64,000 nt of DNA from Phreatobacter sp. (GTDB lineage Bacteria > Pseudomonadota > Alphaproteobacteria > Rhizobiales > Phreatobacteraceae), in assembly GCF_030691135.1 (NCBI RefSeq), contig NZ_JAUYFA010000037.1, positions 62,001 through 126,000 on the forward strand. Reading direction: 5' to 3'. The notes beneath the pieces were generated by a model, which made no database searches, was not told the origin of the DNA, and saw nothing but the letters and a program-made list of their open reading frames with translations. Below are positions 2,455 through 60,629 of this stretch, in pieces; within the stretch, counting starts at the first letter, position 1, and each line of letters starts with the position of its first letter. A program made the position numbers and the translations under genes.

Positions 2455-2997
2455 TCATCTCGGGCGGGTCGCGTACCAGCCGGCGACCTGGGTGACGATG
2501 TTCTCGGCGAGCGCCTTGGTCGCGCGCTCCTGCGCCTCGATGACGGCACGGTCTGAGGCGAGACGCTGGGCGGTGCGATCGAAGGAGGCGGAGGCGAAGG
2601 CCGAGCCGCGATGGATGACCTGCGCGTCGCCGACCGCCGTGATCGTATAGAAGCCGAACATGGTGACGGACTGGGCTGACGGCCGTCCGGCGGCGGTGTT
2701 GAGCGCCAGAGGCACGGTGTCGACGCCGACGGCGACACGCAGCACATGGGTCGGCGAGGCGGCGCGGCCGCCGCCACCCTGCGTCAGATATATGAGCTCG
2801 TTGCGCAGGATGACGCCGCTGCGACCGGGAATCTCGGGAATGTCGAGATCGCGCAGCGCCGCCTGGGCGTTGCGGCCGCCGGTGACCACTGCCGGGTCGC
2901 CGTAGAGCGGCGCGAAGCATCCCGCCAGCGCGGCGGAACAGGCGCAGACCGCGACGAGGCGGCTCAGGCGAGCGAACGAGGTGTCAACCCACGACAT
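2455..2997 (-). CDS. lptE: LPS assembly lipoprotein LptE
   Basis: A 180-residue outer-membrane lipoprotein that plugs the LptD barrel and helps insert lipopolysaccharide into the outer leaflet. A short N-terminal signal sequence ends in the lipobox LAGC with the acylated cysteine at residue 27, followed by FAPLYGD, typical of LptE. The remainder is the small alpha/beta domain seen in the family. The start overlaps the end of leuS by 14 bases and the stop is five bases from the holA GTG, so the three genes are translationally packed. Overall sequence conservation in this family is low; the lipobox, size and neighbours carry the identification. Confidence 0.92.
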
Positions 2998-5611: not shown

Positions 5612-5761
5612 GATGGGCGGCGGGTCCGGACAACGGGGCAAAAGCGAGCGCGGACAACACACGAAAGGGCCCGGCCGGTCAAGGATTTGGCGCATATGGG
5701 GGCCTTGCTGGTCGTCTGACGCGGCGCGTGGTAGCTCGAACGCCGCCCAAGGAGCCCAGCC

Positions 5762-6433
5762 ATGTCCGACGCCGTATCCCGTCTTGCCGAGGTGAAGGCC
5801 GCCATCGCCGCCGCGACGGCTGATGCGAAGCGCCCGGACGGATCGGTGACGCTCGTCGCGGTGTCAAAGACCTTCCCGGTCGAGGCGATCGAGCCGGTTC
5901 TGGCCGCTGGCCATCGCGTCTTCGGCGAGAACTATGTGCAGGACGCCAAGGGAAAGTGGCCGGAGCTGCGCGCGCGCTATCCCGACGCCCAAGTCCACAT
6001 GATCGGGCCGCTGCAGTCGAACAAGGCGAGGGAAGCTGTCGCCCTCTTCGACGTGATCGAGACCCTCGACCGTCCGTCTCTGGCGAAGGAACTGGCGAAG
6101 GAGATCGAGAAGGCAAGCGGCACGCGGCGTCCGCGCTTTCTCGTCCAGGTCAATACCGGGGCCGAGCCGCAGAAGGGCGGCGTGCTGCCGGACGAGGCCG
6201 ATGCCTTCATCGCGGCTTGCAGAAATCAGTATGGGCTCGATGTCGAAGGCGTCATGTGCATCCCCCCGGCAGACGAGCCCCCAGCGCCCCATTTCGCACT
6301 GCTGACGACCATCGCGCGCCGCAACGGGCTCTCCACCGTGTCCATGGGCATGAGCGCCGACTATCCCGTCGCCATCGCCATGGGCGCGACCCATGTGCGT
6401 GTCGGCAGCGCCATTTTCGGGGCGCGCGGCTGA
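5762..6433 (+). CDS. yggS: YggS family pyridoxal phosphate homeostasis protein
   Basis: A 223-residue PLP-binding protein of the YggS/PLPBP/PROSC family, a single alanine-racemase-like barrel that buffers free PLP and has no firmly established catalytic reaction. The PLP lysine lies in LVAVSKTFP, followed by the conserved VFGENYVQ motif. The phosphate-binding and C-terminal block [22 protein letters not shown] is intact. Length is typical. The gene is divergent from leuS with about 150 bases between starts, an arrangement common in this group of bacteria. A GC-rich stem-loop follows the stop. Confidence 0.95.
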
Positions 6434-6485
6434 TCGTCAGCCGGTGCCGATGGCAACGGCGCCCTTGCTCAGGAATGGAGGAAGG

Positions 6486-6503
6486 GCGGCCACGCATGGC
6501 CGC
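6486..6503. terminator. Stem-loop after yggS
   Basis: Inverted repeat GCGGCC-ACGCAT-GGCCGC downstream of the yggS stop. It has a six-base stem and a six-base loop, with no T-run after it, so termination is plausible but not certain. Confidence 0.4.
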
Positions 6504-6533
6504 TGCCCAGACGCCTCACGGCCCTTTGCATGT

Positions 6534-6550
6534 GTATCGGCGGTCGATAC
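6534..6550. promoter_or_regulatory. IclR-type operator, site 1 (GTATC-N7-GATAC)
   Basis: GTATC-GGCGGTC-GATAC, part of a longer palindrome (TGTATCG-N5-CGATACA, 6533-6551), 48 bases upstream of the IclR regulator gene at 6599. The same GTATY-N7-RATAC pattern recurs at 56565, 57672 and 60439, near a paralogous IclR gene. This is inferred to be the autoregulatory operator. Confidence 0.65.
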
Positions 6551-6598
6551 AACCGTTCCGAAAGAGCCCGTCGGCGGGCATTGTGAGGGTTCCGTATC

Positions 6599-7414
6599 GT
6601 GTCGACGCAGCAGGGTTTCGAGCGCCGCTATCAGGCGCCAGAGCGCGAACCGATCATCGAGGTCGACGAGCGCCTGTTCCTCAAATCCGCGGCGCGATCA
6701 TTCTATGTGCTGGAGGCCTTTGCGCGCAGCCCGCGCCCGCTGTCGCTGGCGGAGGTCGCCAAGGGTGCCAAGATTTCCAAAAGCGCCGCCCAGCGTGTCG
6801 TCCAGACGCTGCTCGTCCTCGGGTATCTTGAGCGCTCGCCGACCGGGACGGGTGTCATTCCGGGCCGGCGCATCCTCGACCGGTCCTTCGATTATCTCCG
6901 GTCGAATCCCCTGATCGAACGGGCGACGCCGATCCTCACCGAGTTGCGCAAGACCTGTGGCGAGCGCGTCGACCTGAGCCTCTTCGACGATGTGACGATC
7001 CTCTACGCGATCCGCCTGCAGAGCAAACGGGAGACCTTCTACGCGACCCTGTCGGGCCGCCGCATGCCGACCTTCGCCACCGCCGGCGGCCGGGCGATGC
7101 TGGCCTGCCTCGACGACCGCCATGCCGATGACATCGTCCGGCGGTCGAAGCTTGCGCCACTGACACCGAAGACCCTCGTCGATCCCGCGCTGATCCGCCA
7201 GCGCGTCGAGGAAGCCAGGCGGGACGGCTATGCCTATGTGCTGGAGGAAAGCCTGCTGGGCGAGATCGTCGTCGCCGCCGCGGTGATCAAGGAGCGTAAC
7301 ATGCCCGTCGGCGCCATCCACATTGCGGGATCGCTGGCCGACTGGTCCGCAGAGGATTTCCGCAAGCGCTTCGCGCCGCTTGCCATCGAGGCGGCCCGTG
7401 CCCTGTCGGGGTGA
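6599..7414 (+). CDS. IclR family transcriptional regulator (paralog 1)
   Basis: A 271-residue IclR-type regulator. The winged helix-turn-helix is at about residues 40-80 (LSLAEVAKGAKISKSAAQRV). The C-terminal GAF-like effector domain contains YAIRLQSKRETFYATLSGRR and ends in PVGAIHIAGSLADW. The start is GTG 6599. A second regulator at 56748-57524 is strikingly similar over its whole length (shared FDYLRSNPLIERATP, AIRLQSKRETFYATL, LAIEAARALS), so the two are paralogs, and both have the same operator pattern upstream. The reductase gene 122 bases downstream is the likely local target or operon partner. The effector is unknown. Confidence 0.92.
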   Translation: MSTQQGFERRYQAPEREPIIEVDERLFLKSAARSFYVLEAFARSPRPLSLAEVAKGAKISKSAAQRVVQTLLVLGYLERSPTGTGVIPGRRILDRSFDYLRSNPLIERATPILTELRKTCGERVDLSLFDDVTILYAIRLQSKRETFYATLSGRRMPTFATAGGRAMLACLDDRHADDIVRRSKLAPLTPKTLVDPALIRQRVEEARRDGYAYVLEESLLGEIVVAAAVIKERNMPVGAIHIAGSLADWSAEDFRKRFAPLAIEAARALSG

Positions 7415-7536
7415 AGACACCCCGAAGTGATCTCCGGGCCGGGCGGCCCGCCTTGCTGCAGTGCGGCAGAGCCCCCAAGTCGCTCAGACCCCTTTCCCGC
7501 GGATGCCAGAGCCGCCCCTTTCAGCAGGAGATGACC

Positions 7537-8634
7537 ATGAGCCAGGATTCCGGTCCGTTGTTCCAGCCCTTCACCCTCGGCGACCTGACGCTTCCCAACC
7601 GCATCGTCATGGCGCCGCTGACCCGCAACCGCGCCACGCCGGGAACCGACGCGGCCAATGCGATGACCGCGACCTATTACCGGCAGCGCGCCACGGCCGG
7701 CCTGATCATCTCCGAGGGCACCCAGGTCTCGCCGCAGGGCCAGGGCTATCTGCAGACCCCCGGCCTCTACAGCGATGCGCAGGTCGCCGGCTGGAAGACC
7801 GTCACCGACGCAGTCCACGCCGCCGGCGGGCGCATGTTCGCCCAGATCTGGCATGTCGGCCGCGTCTCGCACGAATCGCTGCTCAACGGCGGCGCGCCCG
7901 TGGCGCCCTCCGCCGTTGCGGCCAAGTCGAAGACCTATATCGCGGGCGGGTTCGCCGACGTCTCGGCCCCGCGCGCCCTGGCGCTCGCGGAGATCCCCGG
8001 CGTCGTCGCCGAGTATGCCGATGCCGCCGTCAATGCGCGCAAGGCCGGGTTCGACGGCGTCGAGATCCACGGCGCCAACGGCTATCTCATCGACCAGTTC
8101 CTGAAGGACGGCGCCAACCAGCGCCAGGACGCCTATGGCGGTTCGGCGGAGAACCGGGTGCGGTTCGGCCTCGAAGTGGTCGACGCCATCCTCAAGGTCT
8201 TCCCGAAGACCCGCCTCGGCATCCGGCTGTCGCCGGTCAGCCCGGCCAACGACACCGTCACCTCCGATCCGGCCGAGGTCTTCGGCCTCTTCGTGGCGGA
8301 GCTCTCGAAGCGCGGCATCGCCTTCATTCATGTCGTGGAGGGTGCGACGGGCGGTCCGCGCGACAACGTGCCCTTCGACTGGGTGGCGCTGCGCAAGTCC
8401 TTCTCGGGCGCCTATATCGCCAACAACGGCTATACGCGCGACATGGCCATCGACGCCGTCCGTGACGGGCGGGCCGACCTCGTCGCCTTCGGAAAGGCCT
8501 TCATCGCCAATCCGGACCTGGTGGAGCGTCTGCGCCTCGACGCACCGCTGAACGAACTCGACAAGACGACGCTCTATGGCGGCGACGCGAAGGGCTATAC
8601 CGACTATCCCGCGCTGGCCGAAGCTGCGGAGTGA
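7537..8634 (+). CDS. Old Yellow Enzyme family alkene reductase
   Basis: A 365-residue FMN-dependent ene-reductase of the OYE/NemA family, which reduces activated C=C bonds of enals, enones, maleimides or nitro compounds using NAD(P)H. The FMN-site strand reads NRIVMAPLTRNRA. The substrate-binding HxxN pair and proton-donor tyrosine are H178, N181 and Y183 in VEIHGANGYLIDQF, followed by DAYGGSAENR. The start is ATG 7537, six bases after AGGAG at 7526-7530; a GTG at 7411 is in frame but gives an atypical extension. It follows the IclR gene on the same strand. The physiological substrate cannot be told. Confidence 0.95.
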   Translation: MSQDSGPLFQPFTLGDLTLPNRIVMAPLTRNRATPGTDAANAMTATYYRQRATAGLIISEGTQVSPQGQGYLQTPGLYSDAQVAGWKTVTDAVHAAGGRMFAQIWHVGRVSHESLLNGGAPVAPSAVAAKSKTYIAGGFADVSAPRALALAEIPGVVAEYADAAVNARKAGFDGVEIHGANGYLIDQFLKDGANQRQDAYGGSAENRVRFGLEVVDAILKVFPKTRLGIRLSPVSPANDTVTSDPAEVFGLFVAELSKRGIAFIHVVEGATGGPRDNVPFDWVALRKSFSGAYIANNGYTRDMAIDAVRDGRADLVAFGKAFIANPDLVERLRLDAPLNELDKTTLYGGDAKGYTDYPALAEAAE

Positions 8635-8691
8635 CGACCCGGGACGGGGCGGCGCGAAGCCGCTCCGTCGCTGCAAAAGCCGAATGGGAGG

Positions 8692-8716
8692 TCTGGCGGT
8701 CCCGAAGCCCGCCAGA
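8692..8716. terminator. Hairpin after the OYE gene; its arm matches the tRNA-Arg 3' end
   Basis: TCTGGCGG and CCGCCAGA pair over eight bases around a nine-base loop, followed by TTAG; a likely weak terminator for the reductase gene. The 14 bases 8694-8707 (TGGCGGTCCCGAAG) are identical, in the same orientation, to the end of the tRNA-Arg gene at 31664-31677, which makes this a candidate attachment-site copy. The hairpin role alone could also explain part of the match. Confidence 0.5.
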
Positions 8717-8838
8717 TTAGCCGATCTAGTAATGTCCAGGTCGATCATCCAGATCGAAATTCGGCCTATTCCCCATAGACCTACCGAAACGACTCTCTCA
8801 GCCTGATCCTGTCGAAGTCCACCAATCGCGACTGCCAA

Positions 8839-8874
8839 TTGGGGCAGCCGTTAGGGCAGCGATTAGGACAGGTT
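8839..8874. repeat. Three imperfect 12-bp tandem units
   Basis: TTGGGGCAGCCG, TTAGGGCAGCGA and TTAGGACAGGTT follow one another without gaps in non-coding DNA beside the IS3 remnant. The units are degenerate and no function is apparent. Confidence 0.5.
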
Positions 8875-8978
8875 GGAGGAGGCGTAAGAGTCGAGCGCTT
8901 CATAAATTGAGTGACCGCTTTGTTGAGAAAGTGAGCGAGCCGAAGCACCACGGCGATGAAGGTGGCCTCTATCCATCT

Positions 8979-9419
8979 GTCCGGCTTGCGGGCATGCAGG
9001 GCCTGCTCCAGCGCGTCGAGCACGACACCCGCCGTCTGCGTACGGCTGACCCGCCAGCCAACGTTGCGCCTGGGCGAAATACGCGCTCGCCTTGCGCAGG
9101 ATCTCGTTCGCCTGGCGCAGCTCGTGGACCTCGCGCTCCAGCGCCTTCAGCTTCTCCGTGACATCAGAGGGAACGCCAGCGCGCTTCCCGCCATCAACCT
9201 CCGCCCGCTTGACCCATTCCAGCAGTGTGTGGGTCGAGCAGCCGATCTTTGCGGCAATCGAGGCGCAGGCAACCCAGCGCGAGGAATGCTCGCCCTCCTG
9301 GTCCAGCACCAGCCGAACCGCTCGCTCGCGCACCTCAGGTGAAAACTTGTTCGTCGTCTTGCTCATGATGGCTCATCCTTCTCAGGAGTTGAGCCCTCCG
9401 GCAAACCCAGTGCGGTTCA
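8979..9419 (-). mobile_element. IS3-family element, internally deleted remnant
   Basis: orfA reads from ATG 9366 to about 9067. It encodes an HTH protein ([20 protein letters not shown]) with the leucine-zipper-like [20 protein letters not shown] and the family ending ASAYFAQA. Immediately after, in another frame (9062-8979), comes a piece from the middle of the orfB integrase, [12 protein letters not shown] plus VLDALEQAL. The first part of orfB has therefore been deleted, and everything after the fragment (the rest of the DDE domain) is missing. A TGAACCGCACTGGG end, typical of an IS3 left terminus, starts at 9419. No matching right terminal repeat was found near 8780-8980, so the element cannot move on its own. 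Confidence 0.85.
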
Positions 9420-9441
9420 GTTCAGGGATCGGCCGCGTGCC

Positions 9442-10332
9442 TCAGCGACCGGCTGTGGGCCCTGTAGCGCAATGGCGCGCGACAGCAGCGTGGGTGGCGA
9501 ACCAGCAGCCGCCGCGGGCCTTCATGTGCCGGATCAGTTCCTCGACGATGAAGATGCGGGATCGGTAGCCGATGACGTGGGGATGCATGGTGAGGAGAAA
9601 CAGGCCGCCTTCCTCATGCGCGCGGTCGAATTCACGGATGAAGATGTCGAGAACAGCGGGCGGCGGCGTATGCGGCCGCAGGCCTTTGAACCGGTCCATG
9701 TTGAAATAGGGGGCGTCGTCCCGGATCCACTCGACAGGCAGTTCGACGATGCCCGTGGGCACGCCGTCCTCGACCAGTTCATAGGGATCGTCGTCGGCCA
9801 TCAGCGAGGAATCGTAGATCAGGCCGAGTTCGCGCTGGATCTTCAGGGTCGAGGGTGAAAAGTCCCAGGACGGCGTCCGCATCCCGACGGCACGGATGCC
9901 GGTGATTTTCTCGAGCTGGTCCGCGGCGCGAAAATGCAGGTCGCGCTCGACCGCCTCCGGCAGGACGGAGTTGAGCTCGTGGATCCATCCGTGGAGACCG
10001 ATCTCGTGACCCTCGGCAATGACCCGGCGCTGTTCGTCGGGATGAAGCAGGGCCGCGACCGCCGGCACGAAGAAGGTGGCGGGCACCGATTCGCGACCGA
10101 GCACGGAGAGGATGCGGGGGATGCCCCGGCGCGCACCATACTGCCCCCAGGACATCCGCCCGATGGAGTTGCCGCCGTCACGCAGTTCGTTGGTCTCGTG
10201 GTCGGAATCGAAAGAGAGTGCGACCGCGCAGCGGGCGCCGCCGGGCCAGCTGGCAGGCTTCAGCGACCGTCCGGCGCGCACATGTTCGACGCGACCGCGC
10301 CATTCCGCCTCGTCCCATTGCCACGGTTCCAT
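9442..10332 (-). CDS. NodB/PuuE-like polysaccharide deacetylase family protein (paralog 1)
   Basis: A 296-residue NodB-fold carbohydrate esterase/amidohydrolase homolog. The metal-site motifs are altered from classical chitin deacetylases: SFDSDHE with D42 and D44, and the histidine pair H114/H118 in LHGWIHE. This form resembles the PuuE allantoinase-like branch, whose members hydrolyse small amides rather than polysaccharides. No signal peptide is seen, which supports a cytoplasmic small-molecule role. The stop lies a few bases from the ABC-transporter ATPase start region, and the gene is the last of the minus-strand transporter operon. A second, related protein is encoded at 53993-54820. 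The substrate is unknown. Confidence 0.88.
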   Translation of the reverse strand: MEPWQWDEAEWRGRVEHVRAGRSLKPASWPGGARCAVALSFDSDHETNELRDGGNSIGRMSWGQYGARRGIPRILSVLGRESVPATFFVPAVAALLHPDEQRRVIAEGHEIGLHGWIHELNSVLPEAVERDLHFRAADQLEKITGIRAVGMRTPSWDFSPSTLKIQRELGLIYDSSLMADDDPYELVEDGVPTGIVELPVEWIRDDAPYFNMDRFKGLRPHTPPPAVLDIFIREFDRAHEEGGLFLLTMHPHVIGYRSRIFIVEELIRHMKARGGCWFATHAAVARHCATGPTAGR

Positions 10333-10335
10333 GGG

Positions 10336-11349
10336 TCACGTCCTGTCGTCGATCAGCGGGTGGTGGCAGGCCGCGCGCCGTCCATCGGCGAGGTCGCGGA
10401 GATCGGGGGCCTCGCTGCGGCATCGCGCGTCAGCGGCAGGGCATCGCAGGTGAAAGTGGCAGCCGGGCGGCGGCGCGAGCGGCGAGGGCAGTTCGCCGCT
10501 GATCGGCCGGAAGCTGACGAGGTCGTCGCCCGTCGTCACGAGCTTGGGCACGCTGTCGAGCAGGGCGCGGGTATAGTGATGGGCGGGGCGGGTGTAGATG
10601 TCCTCCGTCCGGCCGAGCTCGACGATGCGCCCGAGATACATGATCGCCACCCGGTCGCAGATGTGCCGGATCACCCCGAGGTCATGGCTGATGAACAGCA
10701 TGGTGAGGTTCAGTTCGCGCCGCAGCTTCAGGAACAGGTTGATGATCTGGGCCTGGATGGACACGTCGAGCGAGGCGACGGGCTCGTCGCAGACGAGAAT
10801 GTCGGGCTGCATGGCGAGGGCCCGCGCGATGGCGATCCGCTGGCGCTGGCCGCCGGAGAACTGATGCGGAAAGCGGTCCGCGGCATCGGCCGGCAGGCCG
10901 ACCGCCGAGAGCCAGCGGGCGACCTCGGCGCGGGCCTCGGCGCGTCGGATCAGGCCGTGGGCGATGGGCCCCTCGGCGATCGTCGCTCCGATGCGAAAGC
11001 GCGGGTCGAGCGAGCCGAACGGATCCTGGAAGATCATCTGCACGCGCGTCGTCGTCTTCACCCGGCGGCGTGAGCCCCCCATCACCGGCTCGCCGTGGAT
11101 GAAGGCCTCGCCGTCGCTCGGCGGGTGGATTCCCGCAATGACGCGGCCGAGGGTCGACTTGCCACAGCCGGATTCGCCGACAAGGCCGAGGACCTCGCCG
11201 GGGGCGATGTCGAGGCTGACACGGTCGACCGCGTGGACCGTGCGGTTCTCGACATAGGCCCCGAAAAGCCCGGCGATCCGCTCGCCGATGGAGGGGGTCG
11301 GCGCGAAGCGGCGGGAGACGTTGCGGACCTCGACAATCGCGGGGCTCAT
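10336..11349 (-). CDS. Dipeptide/oligopeptide-type ABC transporter ATPase (OppF/DppF-like)
   Basis: A 337-residue ABC ATPase energising the adjacent permease pair. The Walker A motif GESGCGKST, signature FSGGQRQRIAIARALA and Walker B ILVCDEPVASLD are intact. The C-terminal extension with a cysteine-bearing GCHFHLRCPAADARC motif is typical of OppD/OppF proteins and of their [4Fe-4S]-like cluster. The start is ATG 11349, overlapping the upstream ATPase stop by the ATGA arrangement. The cognate binding protein is on the opposite strand at 15557. Substrates of this family include peptides, nickel and various small amides; the creatininase-like neighbour suggests a cyclic amide or N-compound. Confidence 0.94.
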   Translation of the reverse strand: MSPAIVEVRNVSRRFAPTPSIGERIAGLFGAYVENRTVHAVDRVSLDIAPGEVLGLVGESGCGKSTLGRVIAGIHPPSDGEAFIHGEPVMGGSRRRVKTTTRVQMIFQDPFGSLDPRFRIGATIAEGPIAHGLIRRAEARAEVARWLSAVGLPADAADRFPHQFSGGQRQRIAIARALAMQPDILVCDEPVASLDVSIQAQIINLFLKLRRELNLTMLFISHDLGVIRHICDRVAIMYLGRIVELGRTEDIYTRPAHHYTRALLDSVPKLVTTGDDLVSFRPISGELPSPLAPPPGCHFHLRCPAADARCRSEAPDLRDLADGRRAACHHPLIDDRT

Positions 11350-12320
11350 GAGGTCGGCTCCGCATGCGGATGATGGCATCGCCAGCGGCGATCGCCCGCG
11401 ACCGTCGGCGCCGGCTCGGCGTCGCAGGCCCCGTCTGCCCGCAGGCAACGCGGCGCGAAAGCACAGCCCGGCGGCAGCGCCAGCATCGAGGGGGGCGCGC
11501 CGGGGATCTGCATCAGGTCCTTGCCGGCAACGGCCTTGGCCGGGAGCGAGTCGAGCAATCCCCGCGCATAGGGGTGACCCGGCGCCGACAGCACCTGGCG
11601 GATCGGTCCTTCCTCGATCACCCGGCCCGCATACATGACGATGATGCGGGAAGCGAGGGATGAGACCGTCGCAAGGTCATGGCTGATCCAGATCAGCGCC
11701 GTCCCGGTATCGCGTGCCAGAGCCCGCATTTCCGTGAGAATCTGTGCCTGGACGGAGACGTCGAGAGCGGTCGTCGGCTCGTCGCAGATGATCAGCTTCG
11801 GCCGGTTGAGCAGGGCCGTCGCAATGGCGACGCGCTGGCGCATGCCGCCGGAGAACTGATGGGGATAGGCGTCGAGCCGGCGCGCGGCATCGGGGATGCC
11901 GACCAGGGTCAGAACCTCCGCCACGCGGGCCCGTGCCGCCGCGGCGCTGACAGTCTCGTGGGCGTGGATGGCGAGGGCCATCTGGTCGCCGATGCGCAGG
12001 ACGGGGTTGAGCGTCGCCGCCGGGTCCTGGAAGACCATGGCGATCTCCCGGCCGCGCATGGCGCGCAGGTCGCGGGCGGGCAGGCCGACCAGCTCGCATC
12101 CCGCCAGCCTGACCGAGCCGCCGGTGATCCGCCCGGGCGGGTCGATCAGGCCGAGGATCGAAAAACCCGTGACGCTCTTGCCCGAGCCGGATTCGCCGAC
12201 GAGGCCGAGGATTTCGCCGGCCTCGACATGGAAGCTGACCTCGCGCACCGCCCGCACGATGCCGGCCCGCGTCGGAAACTCGGTGGTCAGGCCCTCGACG
12301 ACGAGTAGCGGCCCGCTCAT
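11346..12320 (-). CDS. Dipeptide/oligopeptide-type ABC transporter ATPase (OppD/DppD-like)
   Basis: A 324-residue second ATPase of the heterodimeric motor. The Walker A motif GESGSGKSV, signature FSGGMRQRVAIATALL and Walker B LIICDEPTTALD are all present, with the OppD-type C-terminal cysteine motif GCAFAPRCLRADGAC. ATGA overlaps join it to the permease gene before it and the ATPase gene after it, implying translational coupling of the whole operon. Together with the two permeases it forms one importer in the inner membrane. Confidence 0.94.
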   Translation of the reverse strand: MSGPLLVVEGLTTEFPTRAGIVRAVREVSFHVEAGEILGLVGESGSGKSVTGFSILGLIDPPGRITGGSVRLAGCELVGLPARDLRAMRGREIAMVFQDPAATLNPVLRIGDQMALAIHAHETVSAAAARARVAEVLTLVGIPDAARRLDAYPHQFSGGMRQRVAIATALLNRPKLIICDEPTTALDVSVQAQILTEMRALARDTGTALIWISHDLATVSSLASRIIVMYAGRVIEEGPIRQVLSAPGHPYARGLLDSLPAKAVAGKDLMQIPGAPPSMLALPPGCAFAPRCLRADGACDAEPAPTVAGDRRWRCHHPHAEPTS

Positions 12321-52019: not shown

Positions 52020-53750
52020 TCAGGCCGGACGGTCGCCCTTCTTCAGCTTGGCGGCGGCGCGGTTGTCGACGCCCGGCAGCATCTTGGCGGGATCGCGGGT
52101 GACGACGACGTCGACCACCGACGGCCCTTTCGTCGCCAGCGCCTCTTGGAGCGCGGCCCTGAGGGTGGAGGGATGTTCGACCCGGATGCCGTGGCACCCC
52201 AGCGCCTTCGCCGCATCGGCGTAGTTGGTCTCGGCGAGGTCCGAGGCGTGATAGGCGCCGGGGCCGTAGACGAGGTGCTGCAGCGCCTTCACGTAGCCGG
52301 ATGCGGCATTGTTGACGACGACGATGGTGAGGTCGAGGCCCATGCGGCGGGCGGTCTCGATCTCGCCCAGCATCATGTTGAAACCGCCGTCGCCGGTCAG
52401 CCCGATCACCGCCTTGCCCGGCGCGCCCATAGCGCAGCCCATGGCCCCCGGCAGGCCGTAGCCGATGGAGGCGAAGCCGCGGTCCGGGACGAAGCAACGG
52501 CCCGGCTTCTTGGTGTCGAACAGCAGGCCGCCCCAATGGGCGGCAAAGCCGCCGTCGGCGACGAGGTAGCCGTCGGCGGGCAGCACGTGATTGATCTCGG
52601 TCATCAGGCGACCCATGCTGACGGGCACCTCGTCGGAGGTCAGCTTTTCGTTGACGTCGGCGCGCCAGGCCGCCATCCGCTTCGGCACGTCGGCCGCATA
52701 GGCGGACTGCCGGGCGCGGATCGCCTCCGCCTTCGGAGCGAGGGCGGTCGCGAGGTCCTCGATGCCGAGTTTCGCGTCGCCCCAGAGCGTCACTTCGGGC
52801 TGCACGGTGCGGCCGAACTCCTCGGCGACGATGTCGAGATGGATGATGCGCTTGCCGCGCGGCGGCACGGTGAAGCGCTTGGTGGCGATCTCGCCGAGCT
52901 TGCAGCCGATGACGAGAATGAGGTCGCTCTCCTCGATCAGCGTGTTGGCGATCCGGTCGTAGCGACCGAAGAGGCCTGCCGAGAGCGGGCTTGTGCAGGC
53001 AATGGCGCCCTTGCCGGTCATCGTGTGGGCGACGGGGATCGCGAAGGTCTCGGCGAAGCGCTGCAGCGTGTCGGCCGCGCCGGACAGGTGCACGCCGCCG
53101 CCGGCGAGCACGATCGGACGGCTTGCGCCGGCGAGGAGGTCGGCGGCCTTCGCCAGGGCCGCGCCGTCGGGGCGGCAGCGCAGGGCCGGTGCGCCGCCAT
53201 GGGCGGGATCGACCTTGAAGTCGTCGTCGGAGAAACCGTAGCTGCCGTGGCAGATATCCTCCGGCACGTCGACGATGACGGGGCCGGGGCGTCCGGTGGT
53301 GGCGACGGCGAAAGCGCGACGCATCAGTTCGGGGATGCGATGGATGGCCTCGATCCGGATCACCTCCTTGGCGCAGGGCCTGAGGATGTCGAGCTGGCGG
53401 CTCTCCTGGGTCATGTTCTTCCAGGAATGGTCGCGGTGGGTGTCACCAACGATGGCGACCATCGGCGTGCCGGCGTTCAGGGCCTCGACCAGGCCGGTGA
53501 CGAGGTTGGTGGCGCCGGGTCCGAGCGTCGCATCGACGAGGCCGACGCGACCGGTGATCTTGGCATAGGCGTCGGCGGCGAAGACACCGGCGCGCTCGTC
53601 GTTGATCAGGTGGTGCTTGAGGCCGAGGCGGCGGGCGGCGTCGTAGAAGGGCAGCAGCTGGAAGCCGCCCATGCCGAACATCGGGCCGCCGTCGAAGGCG
53701 AGGATCATCCGCGCCAGGGCTTCGCCACCCGTCATTTCATTGTCGCTCAT
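52020..53750 (-). CDS. Thiamine diphosphate-dependent enzyme (acetolactate synthase-like family)
   Basis: A 576-residue ThDP enzyme. The activating glutamate is E52 in NDERAGVFAADAYAK. The central FAD/nucleotide-like domain follows (PIVLAGGGVHLSGA). The ThDP-Mg motif runs from GDGGFNMMLGEIE to VVVNN, 30 residues apart as expected. The overall type matches acetolactate synthase, oxalyl-CoA decarboxylase, benzoylformate decarboxylase and sulfoacetaldehyde acetyltransferase relatives; no small regulatory subunit is near, so a catabolic lyase is more likely than IlvB. The start is ATG 53750. It is downstream of a deacetylase and two SDRs, probably under IclR control. Confidence 0.88.
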   Translation of the reverse strand: MSDNEMTGGEALARMILAFDGGPMFGMGGFQLLPFYDAARRLGLKHHLINDERAGVFAADAYAKITGRVGLVDATLGPGATNLVTGLVEALNAGTPMVAIVGDTHRDHSWKNMTQESRQLDILRPCAKEVIRIEAIHRIPELMRRAFAVATTGRPGPVIVDVPEDICHGSYGFSDDDFKVDPAHGGAPALRCRPDGAALAKAADLLAGASRPIVLAGGGVHLSGAADTLQRFAETFAIPVAHTMTGKGAIACTSPLSAGLFGRYDRIANTLIEESDLILVIGCKLGEIATKRFTVPPRGKRIIHLDIVAEEFGRTVQPEVTLWGDAKLGIEDLATALAPKAEAIRARQSAYAADVPKRMAAWRADVNEKLTSDEVPVSMGRLMTEINHVLPADGYLVADGGFAAHWGGLLFDTKKPGRCFVPDRGFASIGYGLPGAMGCAMGAPGKAVIGLTGDGGFNMMLGEIETARRMGLDLTIVVVNNAASGYVKALQHLVYGPGAYHASDLAETNYADAAKALGCHGIRVEHPSTLRAALQEALATKGPSVVDVVVTRDPAKMLPGVDNRAAAKLKKGDRPA

Positions 53751-53992: not shown

Positions 53993-54820
53993 TCAGGCCG
54001 TCTCGTGGGCCTGCGACCAGGCCTCGGCCACCTCTGCGCCGGTGGCGAACCAGACGCCAGGGAAGGTACGGATGAAGGCGATCAGCTCGCGGATCAGGGC
54101 GATGCGGCTCGGGCGTCCGCCGACCTGCGGATGGAAGATCATGTCGAACAGCCCGCCCCACTTGTAGATCTCGCGGAACTCCTCCTTGTAGACGGAGAGC
54201 ATATGCTCGTTGGTGAAGATCGGCCGCGGCGTCTTGACCGAGAACAGGGCAAAGGGCGCATCGTCCAGCGACCAGTGCCAGGGCAGTTCGATGACGCCCT
54301 TGGAGCCGTCCGGCATGACGTGGCGATAGGGGTTGATGTCGTCCATCAGCGAGGAATCGTAGAGGAAATTGTGCTGCTTCAGCAGCTTGAACAGGCCCTC
54401 GGAGACCTCTCCGGCCGGTGAGCGGTAGCCCTTCGGCACGACGCCGACCGTGCGCTTGAGCGCCTCGAGACCCTTCTCCATCTCCTCGACCTCGGCCTGC
54501 GGATCGTCGCTCACCCATTTGTGGGAATAGGAGTGATGGGCGACCTCGTGGCCGTCCTTGAGGATCATCTCGACGCGGTCGGTATGGTTCTCCGCCGTCC
54601 AGCCGGGGACGAAGAAGGTCGACTTTATGCCCTCGTCGCGCAGCGTGTCGAGGATCTTCGGCACGCCGACCTTGGCACCATATCGACCCTGGCTGAGCAC
54701 GCCGGGGCGACGGACATTGTCCGGGTCGCGCGACGTCCACAGCGTCTCGGCATCGAAGTCGAAGGTCAGCATCACGGCGCAGCGGGCGCCGTTCGGCCAT
54801 TTGACGCTCATGTCGTGCAT
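53993..54820 (-). CDS. NodB/PuuE-like polysaccharide deacetylase family protein (paralog 2)
   Basis: A 275-residue NodB-fold amidohydrolase without a signal peptide. Metal-site motifs are TFDFDAE (D21, D23) and HHSYSH (H96, H100); YRSPAGEVSEGLFKLL is the third family block. It resembles the protein at 9442-10332 in layout and motifs (GARCAV, GRYGAK/GQYGAR, RIALIRELI), so the window carries two divergent copies in separate catabolic loci. A small-molecule amide or imide is a likelier substrate than polysaccharide. It lies between the SDR pair and the ThDP gene; the 242-base gap to the latter may hold a separate promoter. Confidence 0.9.
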   Translation of the reverse strand: MHDMSVKWPNGARCAVMLTFDFDAETLWTSRDPDNVRRPGVLSQGRYGAKVGVPKILDTLRDEGIKSTFFVPGWTAENHTDRVEMILKDGHEVAHHSYSHKWVSDDPQAEVEEMEKGLEALKRTVGVVPKGYRSPAGEVSEGLFKLLKQHNFLYDSSLMDDINPYRHVMPDGSKGVIELPWHWSLDDAPFALFSVKTPRPIFTNEHMLSVYKEEFREIYKWGGLFDMIFHPQVGGRPSRIALIRELIAFIRTFPGVWFATGAEVAEAWSQAHETA

Positions 54821-54844: not shown

Positions 54845-55600
54845 TCAGATTCTTCCATGCCGCGCGGCGAGGAAGCCGCCGTCGACCGGCAAGACCGCGC
54901 CGGTGACGAAGGCGGCGTCCTCTGAACAGAGGAAGGCCACAGGCCCGGCGACGTCGGCCGGTGTTCCCATCCGTTCGACCGGCGTGCCTTCGACGATGAG
55001 CCGGGTGTAAAGCGCGTTCTGCCGGTGGCCTGTGGTCATCGGCGTCGCGATGAGGCCCGGGGCGACGGCGTTGACGAGAATGCCTTCCGGCGCCAGTTCC
55101 CCGGCGAGCTGGCGGGTGAACTGCGCGACGCCGGCCTTCGCCACCGCATAGGCCGTGGTGCCGGGATAGCCGGTGATGCCGAAGATCGAGGAGATGTTGA
55201 CGATGCGCCCGCCGGGCCGCGGCAGGTGCGGCACGACGGCCCGCGTGACGCGCAGGACGGCGGCGAGATTGGTGTCGAGGAAGCGGTCGATGAGCGCGTC
55301 TTCGCTTTCCATCAGCCGCTTCGAACCGCCGATGCCGGCATTGTTGACGAGAATGTCGATGTGCCCGAAGGCGGCGAGCGAAGCCTTCGCCATGGCCTCG
55401 CCGGCGCCGCGGTCGGTGACGTCCTGGATGAGCGCGCTCTGGCCGAGGCGGGCGGCGGTCTCGGTGACCTCCGGGATCACATCGACGAGCAGGACCTGCG
55501 CGCCCTCTGCCGCAAACCGCCCGGCGATCCCCTCGCCGATGCCGCGGGCGGCGCCGGTGACGATGACGACCTTGCCGGCGAAGCGCTTGGGATCAGGCAA
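54845..55600 (-). CDS. SDR family oxidoreductase (second of pair)
   Basis: A 251-residue classical SDR: TGAARGIG cofactor motif, NNAG, catalytic S137/S138, Y151 and K155 (YAVAK), and a VLPVDGG ending. The best start is TTG 55600, four bases after GGAGGG and just past the stop of the preceding SDR; ATG candidates at 55648 and 55627 sit inside that gene and add non-conserved residues. It shares the operon with the SDR upstream and the deacetylase downstream. D40 at the end of strand 2 suggests NAD(H). Confidence 0.88.
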   Translation of the reverse strand: MPDPKRFAGKVVIVTGAARGIGEGIAGRFAAEGAQVLLVDVIPEVTETAARLGQSALIQDVTDRGAGEAMAKASLAAFGHIDILVNNAGIGGSKRLMESEDALIDRFLDTNLAAVLRVTRAVVPHLPRPGGRIVNISSIFGITGYPGTTAYAVAKAGVAQFTRQLAGELAPEGILVNAVAPGLIATPMTTGHRQNALYTRLIVEGTPVERMGTPADVAGPVAFLCSEDAAFVTGAVLPVDGGFLAARHGRI

Positions 55601-56369
55601 GGCGCCCTCCGTCGATAGGCAACGCATGGCCGGTGACGTAGGAGGCATCGTCGCTCAGTAGGTAGAGCACGCCGGCCGCCACCTCCTCCGGCTGGCCGAA
55701 GCGGTTCATCGGATGTTTCGTCTTCTGGAAGGCCTCGCGCTCGGCGCGCTGCACGGGATCGGCGATCGCCGCCATGCCCTGACGGTGCATGGGACTGTCG
55801 ATCGTGCCGGGGCAGACGCAGTTGACGCGAATGTTCTCGGTGGCGTGGTTGAGGGCGAGGCTCTTGGTCAGCAGCGTCACCGCGCCCTTCGAAGCCGAAT
55901 AGATCGAATAGACCGGCGAGCCCTGCAGCCCTGCGGTGGATGAGAACAGCACGACCGCGCCGCGGCCGAGGGTGCGCATGTGCGGGATGATGTGTTTCGC
56001 CGCGAGCCATGAGCCCTTCACGTTGATGGCGAAGACGCGGTCGAACTCGTCCTCCTCCACGTCAATGGCGATCCTGGACGGGCCGATGACGCCCGCTGCA
56101 GCGACCAGCAGCTCCACCGGTCCCAGCTGCGCCCGCGCCGTATCGGCAAAACGCTTGACGTCGGCGGATGAACTCGCGTCCCCCGTCACGGTGACGGCGC
56201 CGGGGCAGAGCGCTGCAGTCTCGGCGAGCGCCGCGGGATCGCGGTCGAACAGGGCGAGCCTCGCGCCCTCTGCGGCGAGGGCGACGGCCGAGGCACGGCC
56301 CAGTGCCCCACCGGCCCCGGTGATGGCCGCAACGCGGCCCTCGAAACGTGCTGCCCTCGGTTCGCTCAT
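55593..56369 (-). CDS. SDR family oxidoreductase (first of pair)
   Basis: A 258-residue classical SDR with TGAGGALG, catalytic S133/S134, Y147 and K151 (YSASKGAV), and the ending GHALPIDGG. It is related to, but clearly distinct from, its neighbour at 54845. Its ATG overlaps the stop of a short open frame (56366-56542) as ATGA, implying that the leader is translated or that the overlap is chance. The IclR-type operator at 56565 is about 195 bases upstream. Confidence 0.92.
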   Translation of the reverse strand: MSEPRAARFEGRVAAITGAGGALGRASAVALAAEGARLALFDRDPAALAETAALCPGAVTVTGDASSSADVKRFADTARAQLGPVELLVAAAGVIGPSRIAIDVEEDEFDRVFAINVKGSWLAAKHIIPHMRTLGRGAVVLFSSTAGLQGSPVYSIYSASKGAVTLLTKSLALNHATENIRVNCVCPGTIDSPMHRQGMAAIADPVQRAEREAFQKTKHPMNRFGQPEEVAAGVLYLLSDDASYVTGHALPIDGGRLA

Positions 56370-56542
56370 GTTCGACCTCCCATACGCAGTTCTTCGAGCC
56401 GCCGATGATCGGCGGCAGGCTGCCCCGGTCCGATCGGGCCGGGATAGAGGTGCGTCAGGTTCTCACGGGCGTTCACGATGCACGAAGCGGTCACGGTCGC
56501 ACCCATGAGGGCCGGCATGCGACGGCGGAAGAGCTGCGTCAT
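56366..56542 (-). CDS. Possible 58-residue leader protein before the SDR operon
   Basis: ATG 56542 opens MTQLFRRRMPALMGATVTAS and ends in an ATGA overlap with the SDR start. No family is recognised and no clear Shine-Dalgarno precedes it, so the only support is the coupling overlap and the position just after the operator at 56565. It could be an untranslated leader instead. Confidence 0.35.
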   Translation of the reverse strand: MTQLFRRRMPALMGATVTASCIVNARENLTHLYPGPIGPGQPAADHRRLEELRMGGRT

Positions 56543-56564
56543 GACGAGAACCCATTGCCTTGTC

Positions 56565-56581
56565 GTATCGTTAGTCAATAC
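56565..56581. promoter_or_regulatory. IclR-type operator, site 2 (GTATC-N7-AATAC)
   Basis: GTATC-GTTAGTC-AATAC in the region between the SDR operon and the IclR gene, 22 bases before ATG 56542 on the minus strand. A further GATACG (56599-56604) mirrors CGTATC (56564-56569), suggesting a second half-site. Confidence 0.65.
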
Positions 56582-56747
56582 GGATATATTGATAGCTTGA
56601 TACGCTGGGTTGCGCGCTGTCAAACCCATGCAAGGGCCGGAGCGGGGCAAATCGCCGGCATGGGTGGCCTGTCCGAAACGCAGGACGTCGCCTCCGGCAG
56701 CACGCCGGTCGCCGTCAGGATCGCAGGGCCGAACGGAGAATTGCGGA

Positions 56748-57524
56748 TCAGACGCTGAGAGCGCGCGCCGCCTCGATGGCCAGGGGCGAGAACCGGCGGC
56801 GGAAATCGGGAATCGACCACTCGCTGAGCGAGCCCGCGATATGAACCGCACCGATCGGCTGACGGTCGCTGTCGAGCACGGCCGCCGCGAGAACCACCTC
56901 GCCGATCAGCGCCTCCTCGGCCGCCCACGAGTAACCCTCAGCGCGGGCCTCTCTGACCTTTTCCCAGATCTGCGGGAGCTCCGTCCGCGACTTCGGCGTC
57001 AGCGCGCGGCGGTTTGATCGCATGAGCAGATCGTCGACCGCTTCATCGGCCATGTGCGCCATGCAGGAACGGCCGCCGGACGACAGGAACGAGGGGATCC
57101 GTCGCCCGGGCAAGGTCGCGTAAAAGGTCTCCCGCTTGCTCTGCAGGCGGATGGCATAGATCGTCGACGTGTCGTCGAAGAGGCTGAGATCGATGCGCTC
57201 GCCGGCGAGCTTGCGCAGTTCCATCAGCACCGGCGTCGCCCGCTCGATCAGGGGATTGGACCGAAGGTAGTCGAAGGAGCGGTCGAGCAGCTTGCGTCCG
57301 AGCGTCAGCCCGCCGCTGTCGGCCCGCTCCAGATAGCCGCGGGCCAGCAGCGTCTGCCCGATCCGCTGCGCGGCACTCTTGTTGATGCCGGTGGCGGCGG
57401 CGATCTCGCCGAGCGATTTCGGCCGCGGGCTCTGCGCGAAGGCCTCGAGCACGTCGAGGGCGCGGGCGACCGATTGCAGGAACAGGCGCTCGTCGACGGC
57501 GTTGGCGCCGGCAGTCTTGGTCAT
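56748..57524 (-). CDS. IclR family transcriptional regulator (paralog 2)
   Basis: A 258-residue IclR regulator: N-terminal winged helix (KSLGEIAAATGINKSAAQRI), linker helix, and effector domain with YAIRLQSKRETFYATLPGRR and PIGAVHIAGSLSEW. It is a close paralog of the regulator at 6599-7414. It lies between the SDR/deacetylase/ThDP operon and the P450/reductase genes, all on the minus strand. Operator-like sites stand on both sides (56565 and 57672). It is likely the pathway regulator for this region; the effector is unknown. Confidence 0.92.
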   Translation of the reverse strand: MTKTAGANAVDERLFLQSVARALDVLEAFAQSPRPKSLGEIAAATGINKSAAQRIGQTLLARGYLERADSGGLTLGRKLLDRSFDYLRSNPLIERATPVLMELRKLAGERIDLSLFDDTSTIYAIRLQSKRETFYATLPGRRIPSFLSSGGRSCMAHMADEAVDDLLMRSNRRALTPKSRTELPQIWEKVREARAEGYSWAAEEALIGEVVLAAAVLDSDRQPIGAVHIAGSLSEWSIPDFRRRFSPLAIEAARALSV

Positions 57525-57718: not shown

Positions 57719-58975
57719 TCATGCCTTCGCGGCCCCGCCCGCCGCCAGCGCCTTCAGGTCATAGCCGACAGCCTCCGCCTCCGCCAGGGTGACAGGCGAC
57801 GGAATGGCCAGGATCCTACGGGCCAGGATGTTGTCGCCGGGCCGGTTGACCGATTCGACGCCGATCAGGATGCCGGCGCGGAACGCGATCAGGGAGAAGC
57901 GCGCCTCGGCCGGATCCCCGATGGTCACCTGCCTGTCGAAACCGGTCGTCAGACCGGCCATCTGCAGCTTGAGATCGCCCTGGTCGGACCAGAACCAGGG
58001 CACGGCGCGATAGGGCTGCGGCGTGCCGGTCAGACGGCCAGCGACGAGGCGGCCCTGGTCGATGGCATTCTGCACCGATTCCAGGCGAATCGGCCCTCCG
58101 GCGAAAGGATTGGGGTGGCTGCAGCAATCGCCGATGGCCGAGATGGCGGGATCGGCGGTCCGTAACAGGTCGTCGACGAGGATGCCGTTCTGGACCGCGA
58201 GGCCGGCCTCGGCCGCGATCTCGGCATTGGCGATGCCGCCGATACCGACCAGAACAAGGTCAGCGGCGAGTATCTCTCCGCCGGTCAGCCTGACACCCGT
58301 GACCTTGCCGGCCACGCCGAGGATCGCCTCGACACCGGCGCCGAAGCGGAACTGCACGCCGGCGATCTCGTGCCGCTCGCGAAAAAAGGCGGATACGGCC
58401 GGCGTCACCGCTCGCGCCATGGCCCGGTCGGCGGCTTCCACCACATGGACCTTCCTGCCGCGCTTGGCTGCGACCGCCGCGAATTCCAGCCCGATGAAGC
58501 CGGCCCCGATCACCACCACGTCGGCGGCAGCTTCCAGCCTGGCCCCGAGAGCCCGGGCATCGGCGAGGGTGCGCAGACAGGCGACGCCGTCGAGATCGGC
58601 GCCTTCGCCGCTCCAGTGCCGGACGCGCGAGCCGGTGGCGATCACCAGATGGCCGTAAGTGCAGGACCCGCCGTCGGCGAGGTCGAGCCTGTGCGCAGGG
58701 CGATCGATCCGAGTCGCCCGTGTGCCGGTTAAAATGCGGATGTCGAGCTTGTCGAGCATGGCCTGGGGCCGCAGCACCAGCGCATCCTCGGCGACCGTGC
58801 CAAGAAGAAAGCCCTTGGACAGCGGCGGCCGCTGGTAGGGCAGGACGGGCTCGTCGCCGATCATCTGGATGGTTCCGGCGAAGCCATCCTCGCGCAGCGA
58901 CAAGGCGGCCTGGAGGCCGGCCTGTCCCGCGCCGAGGATGACGACGTCGGCATGGGTCGCGAAAGGCTGCGTCAT
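57719..58975 (-). CDS. Ferredoxin--NAD(P)+ reductase (putidaredoxin reductase type)
   Basis: A 418-residue flavoprotein of the PdR/ThcD/RhodR family that passes electrons from NAD(P)H to a [2Fe-2S] ferredoxin serving a P450. The FAD motif is GAGQAGLQAALSL, with YQRPPLSKGFLLG, and the NAD motif VVVIGAGFIGLEFA. ISAIGDCC binds the flavin. ATG 58975 is chosen; GTG 58984 is in frame. It follows the P450 gene, but the ferredoxin gene expected between them is a wreck (59014-59169), so its present partner is uncertain. Confidence 0.93.
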   Translation of the reverse strand: MTQPFATHADVVILGAGQAGLQAALSLREDGFAGTIQMIGDEPVLPYQRPPLSKGFLLGTVAEDALVLRPQAMLDKLDIRILTGTRATRIDRPAHRLDLADGGSCTYGHLVIATGSRVRHWSGEGADLDGVACLRTLADARALGARLEAAADVVVIGAGFIGLEFAAVAAKRGRKVHVVEAADRAMARAVTPAVSAFFRERHEIAGVQFRFGAGVEAILGVAGKVTGVRLTGGEILAADLVLVGIGGIANAEIAAEAGLAVQNGILVDDLLRTADPAISAIGDCCSHPNPFAGGPIRLESVQNAIDQGRLVAGRLTGTPQPYRAVPWFWSDQGDLKLQMAGLTTGFDRQVTIGDPAEARFSLIAFRAGILIGVESVNRPGDNILARRILAIPSPVTLAEAEAVGYDLKALAAGGAAKA

Positions 58976-59013
58976 CGAGGTCACAAGGTCTTCACGCGGA
59001 CGCCCCAGCGGCG

Positions 59014-59169
59014 TCAGATCGGCGCGCCCGGCACCGATACCACGATGCCATCCAGCGCGTCAGGCAGGAGAATCCGGCGGGCAGCCGCGCCCTGTCATCA
59101 GGCTCGTCCCCGCCGCCGTATCGATCGTCACCGGGCCCGCCCCGGGACGCGGCAGGGTATGCGCGGCAT
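59014..59169 (-). pseudogene. [2Fe-2S] ferredoxin gene, internally deleted and frameshifted
   Basis: ATG 59169, one base after the P450 stop, opens MPRI. In the next frame VTIDTAAGTSLM appears, the usual N-terminal strand and helix of adrenodoxin-type ferredoxins. Back in the first frame the DNA ends with ALDGIVVSVPGAPI and TGA at 59016-59014, the usual C-terminus. The middle, with all four cluster cysteines, is missing, leaving about 156 of roughly 320 expected bases. Position between P450 and its reductase is exactly that of the dedicated ferredoxin. Confidence 0.72.
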
Positions 59170-59170
59170 G

Positions 59171-60394
59171 TCAGGCCGCCGTCACGCGCAGCGGCAGCGT
59201 CTTCAGGCTGCGCAGGTTGTTGTTGAGGGTGCGGGTCGGCGCGCCGTCAAGTTCGAGGCTCCTCACCTGCCCGACCATGGCTTTCAGCACCGCCTCGCCC
59301 TCGAGCCTTGCGATCATCTGGCCGATGCACATGTGGACGCCGGTGCCGAGGGCGAGATGGCCCATGGTCTGGCGCGTGACGTCGAAGGCGTCGGGACGCT
59401 CCCACTGGTCGGGATCCCGGTTGGCGGCGCCGAGCATGACGAGGATCTTGGTGTCGTTCGGCACCGTGACGCCATCGATCACCACCTCCCGCATGGTCTG
59501 CCGGCAGACGTTCTGGATCGGCGTCTCCAGCCGCATAGCTTCGTCAAGGGCCGGGCGGATGCGGGCGGGATCCTCGCGCAGCAGCGCCCATTGCGCCGGA
59601 TCCATCGCCAGATACCAGAGCGCCGCCGAGATCATGCTCGACGTGGTGTCGAGCCCCCCGCGCAGGAAGGAACGCACCAGAAGCGGTGCCGTCGCGTGAT
59701 CGATCTCGCCGCGGTCGGCGGCCTCGAAGATCGCCTCGCCGAACCCTCCGGGCACCATGGCCTCGCGCTTCATGCTGTCGAGGAACCAGTCCCAGATGAC
59801 GTCGGCCTTGCGCTGGGTCTCCTCGTAACGCGCGTTCTTCGGCCCCTGACCATCGAAATTGAGGGCGCCGAGGAGGAAGAGGTTGTCGCGCCGCTGCGGT
59901 GAGTCGCGCAGGCCGAGCGCTTCCGGAAAGGTGTTGGAGACATAGGTCTCGGCCAGGTCGTGGACGCCGCAGAAGGCACCCTTGTCCACGAGTTCGGCGA
60001 CGAGCCGCCCGGCTGCCGCCTCGAAATCCGCGCGCCAGCGGCGGATGACGGCCGGCGAGAGAATCCGCTGAAGCACCGTCCGCACATGGGTGTGCTGCGG
60101 CGGATCCACCTCGACGATGGGGCTCGCCGGCCGCCATGCCCCGGGCTTGCGGATGTCGCCGAGCCCCGAACCGCCGGTGGAGGAGAAGGTCTCCCAGTCC
60201 TTCAGCAAAGGCAGGACGTCGCGGTGCCGGCCCATCGCATGAACGCCGTAGCGTTGCAGGAACACCACCGGACCTGCATCCCGCACGGCGGCATGCATGG
60301 CCCGCGGCTCGTTCAGCACGTCGTCGGCATAGGGGTCGACATCGAGAACGGGCGCAGCCACGCCATGGGTCGCATTCAGAGCGGTGTCGCGCAT
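59171..60394 (-). CDS. Cytochrome P450
   Basis: A 407-residue bacterial class I P450. The I-helix oxygen groove is GGLDTT (246-251), the ExxR pair is E285/R288, and the heme-ligand cysteine is C356 in LGTGVHMCIGQ. The usual phenylalanine seven residues before the cysteine is leucine, an uncommon change. There is no membrane anchor. It is followed by ferredoxin debris and a ferredoxin reductase and is divergent from soxB. ATG 60394 is chosen; upstream frame to 60499 runs through the operator region. The substrate cannot be predicted. Confidence 0.94.
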   Translation of the reverse strand: MRDTALNATHGVAAPVLDVDPYADDVLNEPRAMHAAVRDAGPVVFLQRYGVHAMGRHRDVLPLLKDWETFSSTGGSGLGDIRKPGAWRPASPIVEVDPPQHTHVRTVLQRILSPAVIRRWRADFEAAAGRLVAELVDKGAFCGVHDLAETYVSNTFPEALGLRDSPQRRDNLFLLGALNFDGQGPKNARYEETQRKADVIWDWFLDSMKREAMVPGGFGEAIFEAADRGEIDHATAPLLVRSFLRGGLDTTSSMISAALWYLAMDPAQWALLREDPARIRPALDEAMRLETPIQNVCRQTMREVVIDGVTVPNDTKILVMLGAANRDPDQWERPDAFDVTRQTMGHLALGTGVHMCIGQMIARLEGEAVLKAMVGQVRSLELDGAPTRTLNNNLRSLKTLPLRVTAA

Positions 60395-60455: not shown

Positions 60456-60629
60456 GGCGGTATCGTCTGAGTTTGGAGAGGCGATGTGCCGCCTGTCAAT
60501 CGCCTCGCCCTTCCCGGTGCGCATGGCTCTTTCCCGGCGATGGGTGCGCGATCCTCGCGCGCAAGACTGGCGCGACCGCTTCATAGCGGCGACAATGGCT
60601 AAGGTTTCCCGCCGGATCGCCCGCCGCCC

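Follow-up and report, generated by a model that had tools for sequence, protein, structure and literature searches.

A class I bacterial P450 receives its electrons through a ferredoxin, and a dedicated ferredoxin gene may lie in the same operon. In the window analysed here, a 64,000-nucleotide stretch of a Phreatobacter sp. contig (the term denotes the whole stretch), a P450 gene and a ferredoxin reductase gene are separated by what appears to be the wreck of such a ferredoxin gene. This raises the question of what, if anything, now carries electrons between the two flanking proteins. A preliminary description, made from the sequence of the window, left two answers side by side: the pathway was recently disabled, or another ferredoxin links the two proteins. 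Its premise, the need of a class I P450 for a ferredoxin of this type, holds, with the qualification that the dedicated operon gene need not be the one that supplies it. Here we explore the damaged gene, its counterparts in related genomes, the constraint on its neighbours and the ferredoxins that could have taken its place.

Gene content of the locus

The source assembly is a draft of 4.2 Mb in 116 contigs and is 99.9% complete. Between 52.0 and 60.4 kb the minus strand of the window carries, in order, a P450, the damaged gene, a ferredoxin reductase, an IclR-family regulator, two SDRs, a deacetylase-fold hydrolase and a ThDP-dependent enzyme. From 60.6 kb onward, sarcosine-oxidase-like genes run in the opposite direction to the P450 cluster. 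The features are:

59171..60394, minus strand: cytochrome P450, 407 aa, CYP199A2-like, intact (PF00067; best solved relative 2FR7; motifs)
59014..59169, minus strand: pseudogene of the ferredoxin, 156 nt, bounded by an ATG and the original TGA (alignment to intact 324-nt orthologues)
59096..59169, minus strand: 5' remnant of the ferredoxin, codons 1-25 (79 columns aligned with G007, 72% identical)
59090..59095, minus strand: internal-deletion junction of the relic, about codons 26-82 missing (alignment)
59014..59089, minus strand: 3' remnant of the ferredoxin, about codons 83-107 and the original stop (aligned with the G001 and G007 genes)
58999..59015, minus strand: inverted repeat GACGCC/GGCGTC, just past the ferredoxin stop and before the reductase (sequence; folding)
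57719..58984, minus strand: ferredoxin reductase, NADH-type, FAD, intact (PF07992, PF14759 Reductase_C; best solved relative 3FG2)
56748..57524, minus strand: IclR-family regulator, conserved cluster (PF09339, PF01614; syntenic in most relatives)
55593..56369, minus strand: SDR dehydrogenase 1, conserved cluster (domain search; synteny)
54845..55612, minus strand: SDR dehydrogenase 2, conserved cluster (domain search; synteny)
53993..54820, minus strand: polysaccharide-deacetylase-fold hydrolase, weakly PuuE-like, conserved cluster (PF01522; synteny)
52020..53750, minus strand: ThDP-dependent enzyme, downstream end of the minus-strand genes (PF02775, PF00205, PF02776)

The P450 starts at the ATG at 60394; the TTG start at 60499 chosen by the ORF caller is probably too long. 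Its best solved relative is 2FR7 (E 8.5e-104). Members of a P450 family by convention share at least about 40% identity, and with 171 of 398 aligned residues identical to CYP199A2 (43%) the protein passes this threshold, which makes it CYP199-like by identity, without formal CYP naming. The acid-alcohol pair (GGLDTT), the ExxR motif (EAMRLE) and the cysteine-bearing heme loop (GTGVHMCIG) are all present and identify it as a P450. The reductase, with 3FG2 as best solved relative (E 2.1e-111), contains the Pyr_redox_2 and Reductase_C domains as well as motifs for FAD and NAD (GxGxxG, GAGFIGLEFA, IGDC) and is of the PuR/putidaredoxin-reductase type. The intact type of the operon ferredoxin, as found in related genomes, is closest to 4LTU among solved structures. 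We take 2FR7, 3FG2 and 4LTU to be CYP199A2, PuR and HaPux, respectively, of the Rhodopseudomonas palustris CYP199A system.

The GACGCC/GGCGTC repeat is present in five genomes, G000 (the window genome), G001, G002, G007 and G009, and for three of them the predicted fold forms this stem. It is retained in these genomes regardless of whether the ferredoxin gene is intact or dead.

Structure and descent of the relic

The relic extends on the minus strand from an ATG at 59169 to a TGA at 59014, beginning directly past the P450 stop (59171) and ending before the reductase start (58984). It measures 156 nt, compared with 324 nt for the intact gene, which encodes 107 aa in the same operon slot of G001 and G007. 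The start and end sequences that the preliminary description had recognized as those of a ferredoxin, VTIDTAAGTSLM and LPDALDGIVVSVPGAPI with its stop, are indeed both encoded, in two different frames, and match the intact G001 and G007 ferredoxins over codons 1-25 and about codons 83-107. Local DNA alignment of the spacer to the intact gene scores 97 (G001) and 83 (G007), against about 23 +/- 3 and a maximum of 35 for 300 dinucleotide shuffles. Taken singly, the fragments reach 6.6 and 2.2 bits in a protein-profile search, each being too short to score strongly, so the proof rests on DNA homology and synteny. Alignment scores above those of the shuffles and the operon slot place the descent of the relic in an adrenodoxin/putidaredoxin-type [2Fe-2S] ferredoxin gene.

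The damage consists of at least two small frameshifting indels and a large internal deletion. A 1-nt deletion lies in the 5' remnant near codon 4-5 (~59158/59159) and is common to two other species; a further one lies in the 3' remnant (~59081/59082). In the alignment with the intact gene, the large deletion takes the columns of the cluster ligands C40, C46 and C49, and Arg stands in place of C87. The relic thus lacks the C-x5-C-x2-C ... C arrangement and its product could not hold a [2Fe-2S] cluster, which bears out the earlier reading that the gene is frameshifted and has lost its cysteine-bearing middle. Judged by alignment and operon position, 59014-59169 is what remains of the dedicated ferredoxin gene of the operon: a genuine pseudogene of long standing, and not a ferredoxin.

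Age of the relic

G002 and G009 contain relics of 135 nt at the same operon position. The distance from the ATG position to an ATCGA is 50 nt in the window, G002 and G009 and 51 nt in the intact genes of G001 and G007, which points to one deletion common to all three relic carriers. The internal deletions are non-nested: the window retains codons up to 25 that are gone from G002 and G009, and these retain a few codons ahead of 83 that are gone from the window. Since neither state can be derived from the other, a single ancestral internal deletion behind all relics was rejected; in the common ancestor of the three species the gene most likely had its frameshift already while keeping most of its length, and it probably eroded independently thereafter. 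The G002 relic has lost its start codon as well; that of G009 still has an open reading frame of 44 codons, without cluster ligands. The comparison with homologous operons suggested in the preliminary description hence matched the relic to intact genes and dated its first lesion as old and common to other species.

Ferredoxin loss in Phreatobacter and beyond

The comparison covered 12 Phreatobacter genomes, G000 included. All 12 keep the P450, and four have an intact operon ferredoxin (G001, G007, G008, G003). Seven have P450 and reductase without an intact ferredoxin, either with a relic (G000, G002, G009) or with no ferredoxin trace (G005, G010, G004, G011). The remaining genome, G006, retains the P450 in a cluster that has neither the ferredoxin nor this reductase. 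Parsimony on a FastTree phylogeny of concatenated operon proteins gives at least three independent losses, a count that may be four because G006 sits on the tree with low support (0.19). The SDR1 and SDR2 trees conflict in places with the P450 tree, and SDR1 of the window (SDRs at 54845-56369) is unusually near that of G010. This suggests recombination inside the cluster, and the tree is to be read as the history of the operon, not as a species tree. One loss followed by regain in G001 and G007 is unlikely, since the relic matches the gene that G001 and G007 carry in this very position.

In G005 (locus L018, spacer ~1139-1500) a long REP/MITE-like inverted repeat (CCTCACCCTTCCCTCTCCCCGC...) occupies the place of the lost ferredoxin; its sister G010 is without a long inverted repeat at this site.

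Relatives of the P450 beyond the genus are accompanied by ferredoxin and reductase in Bosea, Microvirga and Ochrobactrum, and by a ferredoxin only in Bordetella; in other cases, such as Pinisolibacter and Albimonas, neither was found within the fetched P450 locus. Three Bordetella loci (L040, L041, L042) have two P450 genes and a ferredoxin with no reductase alongside.

The cluster also varies in a branched-chain-type ABC transporter cassette. In G001, G007, G004 and G011 it lies between IclR and SDR1 (2902-7381 in L056, 3825-8299 in L063), whereas G006 has it between P450 and SDR1. The window counterpart, the IclR-SDR1 gap at 56370-56747, is empty of it. G002, G005, G009 and G010 are without the cassette too, and neither these four genomes nor G000 contain a close match to the ABC binding protein. 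The missing cassette possibly leaves room for pathway remodelling in the window lineage.

Selection on the P450 and the reductase

Codon models give the P450 an omega of 0.060 in the seven ferredoxin-less genomes with reductase versus 0.047 in seven intact ones; the four no-trace genomes have 0.024 and the three relic carriers 0.111. The corresponding values for the reductase are 0.060, 0.084, 0.042 and 0.081. Pairwise omega inside the ferredoxin-free pairs G004/G011 and G005/G010 (0.03-0.09) agrees with the codon models; the lowest pairwise value for the P450 (0.03) is that of G004/G011, which have no ferredoxin and retain the ABC transporter. Both genes are under purifying selection, with omega about 0.02-0.11. 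Relaxation to neutrality was rejected, as omega is far below 1; the value of 0.111 in the relic carriers, above that of the other sets, is the sole hint of what may be some relaxation of the P450. With open reading frames, motifs and purifying selection all in place, the P450 and the reductase are as intact as had been described. The suggestion of a recent disabling finds no such backing, because the frameshift is common to three species and both reading frames have stayed open and constrained since.

Candidate replacement ferredoxins

A genome search for other adrenodoxin-type ferredoxins, proposed along with the original observation, yielded two, on contigs C53 and C78. The housekeeping ferredoxin on C53 (G000:C53:5984-6304, 106 aa) has an orthologue in all 12 Phreatobacter genomes (80-97% identical) and is the only adrenodoxin-type ferredoxin common to them. 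Its closest solved relative is 3HUI, presumably PuxB of R. palustris. We looked in the 12 genomes for a shift of this protein toward the operon type where the dedicated ferredoxin is missing, and saw no such convergence. The cluster loop GGACACATC and the C-terminal glycine are identical in 12/12, so any adaptation would lie on the P450 side.

The ferredoxin on C78 belongs to a cluster (L064, ~2870-11957) of two SDRs, two deacetylase-fold hydrolases, a reductase, a P450 and the intact ferredoxin itself, which shares 49% identity with the intact operon type and has a hydrophobic C-terminus. Reductase and P450 are 48% and 39% identical to their counterparts in the window. Among the 12 genomes this P450-reductase cluster occurs in the window genome only, and a search of the 11 other Phreatobacter genomes found no ferredoxin of the C78 type. 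As a general replacement it was therefore rejected, being absent from the other ferredoxin-less genomes.

Discussion

We consider it probable, from gene content and conservation, that the conserved housekeeping PuxB-like ferredoxin links reductase and P450. The P450 would still be a class I monooxygenase, with electrons passing from NADH to the PuR-like reductase, on to the housekeeping [2Fe-2S] ferredoxin and then to the P450. Under such an arrangement the dedicated ferredoxin would have become redundant and would then have been lost repeatedly. Most likely a 1-nt frameshift near its start arose in the ancestor of three Phreatobacter species, and separate deletions later removed the middle of the dead gene in each lineage; two other Phreatobacter pairs lost it completely, and P450 and reductase stayed intact and constrained. 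The proposed electron chain is plausible and accords with every reductase-keeping genome. An unlinked carrier gains support from G006, which keeps the P450 though both ferredoxin and reductase are gone from the cluster. As to published partners, a comparison of seven redox pairs with the unrelated P450 OxyE found PuR together with the C-terminal PuxB variant A105V to work best (PMC5067714). That altered C-terminus counts against a takeover, given the invariant cluster loop and C-terminal glycine of the housekeeping protein. Further points against it are that P450-ferredoxin pairing can be selective (PMC6208970) and that CYP199A2 accepts foreign partners and works best with its native ones (PMC7011507). 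Carriers of other ferredoxin classes, or flavodoxins, may also be the partner. Of the two answers left by the preliminary description, the linking of both proteins by another ferredoxin is thus the better supported, with a PuxB-like candidate in every genome; the link itself is one that we infer.

Several other readings of the locus were weighed. A stepwise dismantling of the pathway, in which the ferredoxin went first and P450 and reductase are now slowly declining, is rather unlikely: the transporter cassette is absent from the window locus and the P450 omega is 0.111 in the relic carriers, but the reading frames and catalytic motifs of both genes are all intact, omega is far below 1, the state of a reductase without ferredoxin is maintained in seven genomes, and the ferredoxin is gone entirely from G004 and G011, which kept the transporter and show the lowest P450 omega. 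The window strain could instead draw on the second P450 operon, where a complete ferredoxin sits beside a related reductase and P450. We regard this as unlikely even there, as G002, G009 and four other ferredoxin-less, reductase-keeping genomes do without a C78-type ferredoxin, and G002 and G009 share the dead gene; being absent elsewhere, the C78 ferredoxin could not account for the loss generally and would at most serve the window strain.

A P450 that no longer needs a ferredoxin, taking electrons directly from the reductase or from hydrogen peroxide, would agree with the adjacency of P450 and reductase in seven genomes. This is very unlikely, however, as the P450 retains the acid-alcohol pair typical of normal oxygen activation (GGLDTT or GGLDST), no fusion or new domain was seen, and G006 keeps the P450 without the cluster reductase. 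Its specific form, a two-component monooxygenase in which the PuR-type reductase reduces the P450 directly, is highly improbable; we know of no member of this reductase family that passes electrons straight to a P450. Finally, a ferredoxin gene that is whole in the real genome and broken by assembly or sequencing error is scarcely conceivable. The window assembly is a 116-contig draft, but related relics with the common frameshift and other internal breakpoints occur in two independently assembled genomes, on which ground this explanation was rejected, and four more genomes are without any ferredoxin gene at the site.

The arrangement favoured here, with the housekeeping ferredoxin as carrier, can be set beside known systems. 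For each of the three components the closest solved relative belongs to the CYP199A2/CYP199A4 - Pux/HaPux - PuR system of R. palustris, and the window genome likewise has a PuxB-like second ferredoxin (3HUI); the differences are the modest identity of the P450 (only 43%), another gene cluster and a dead dedicated ferredoxin. In the rhizobial gibberellin operon, where cyp115 is truncated and a frameshifted ggps is compensated by ggps2 (PMC7273348), one operon gene has similarly decayed in an otherwise preserved operon, and its function is restored by a second gene. There, a biosynthetic enzyme was lost and its replacement was shown, whereas in Phreatobacter the lost component is an electron carrier and the replacement is inferred. 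Mycobacterium tuberculosis, with 20 P450s, a handful of ferredoxins and shared, unlinked redox partners (PMC6208970), also has P450s without a ferredoxin of their own that are served by a shared one; the Phreatobacter case differs in that the loss is seen under way, has occurred at least three times inside a single genus, and leaves the reductase beside the P450. The loss of a redundant operon gene is ordinary and has its precedent in the gibberellin operon (PMC7273348). What is unusual is that at least three losses fall within one genus, with several stages visible and the reductase kept.

Matching ferredoxins to bacterial P450s is a persistent practical problem. A single genus here offers closely related P450s whose dedicated ferredoxin is alive, dead or gone against a constant housekeeping ferredoxin. 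Genomes with the partner (G001, G007) and without it (G000, G002, G009, G004, G005) would form a natural series for the switch of a P450 to a general carrier.
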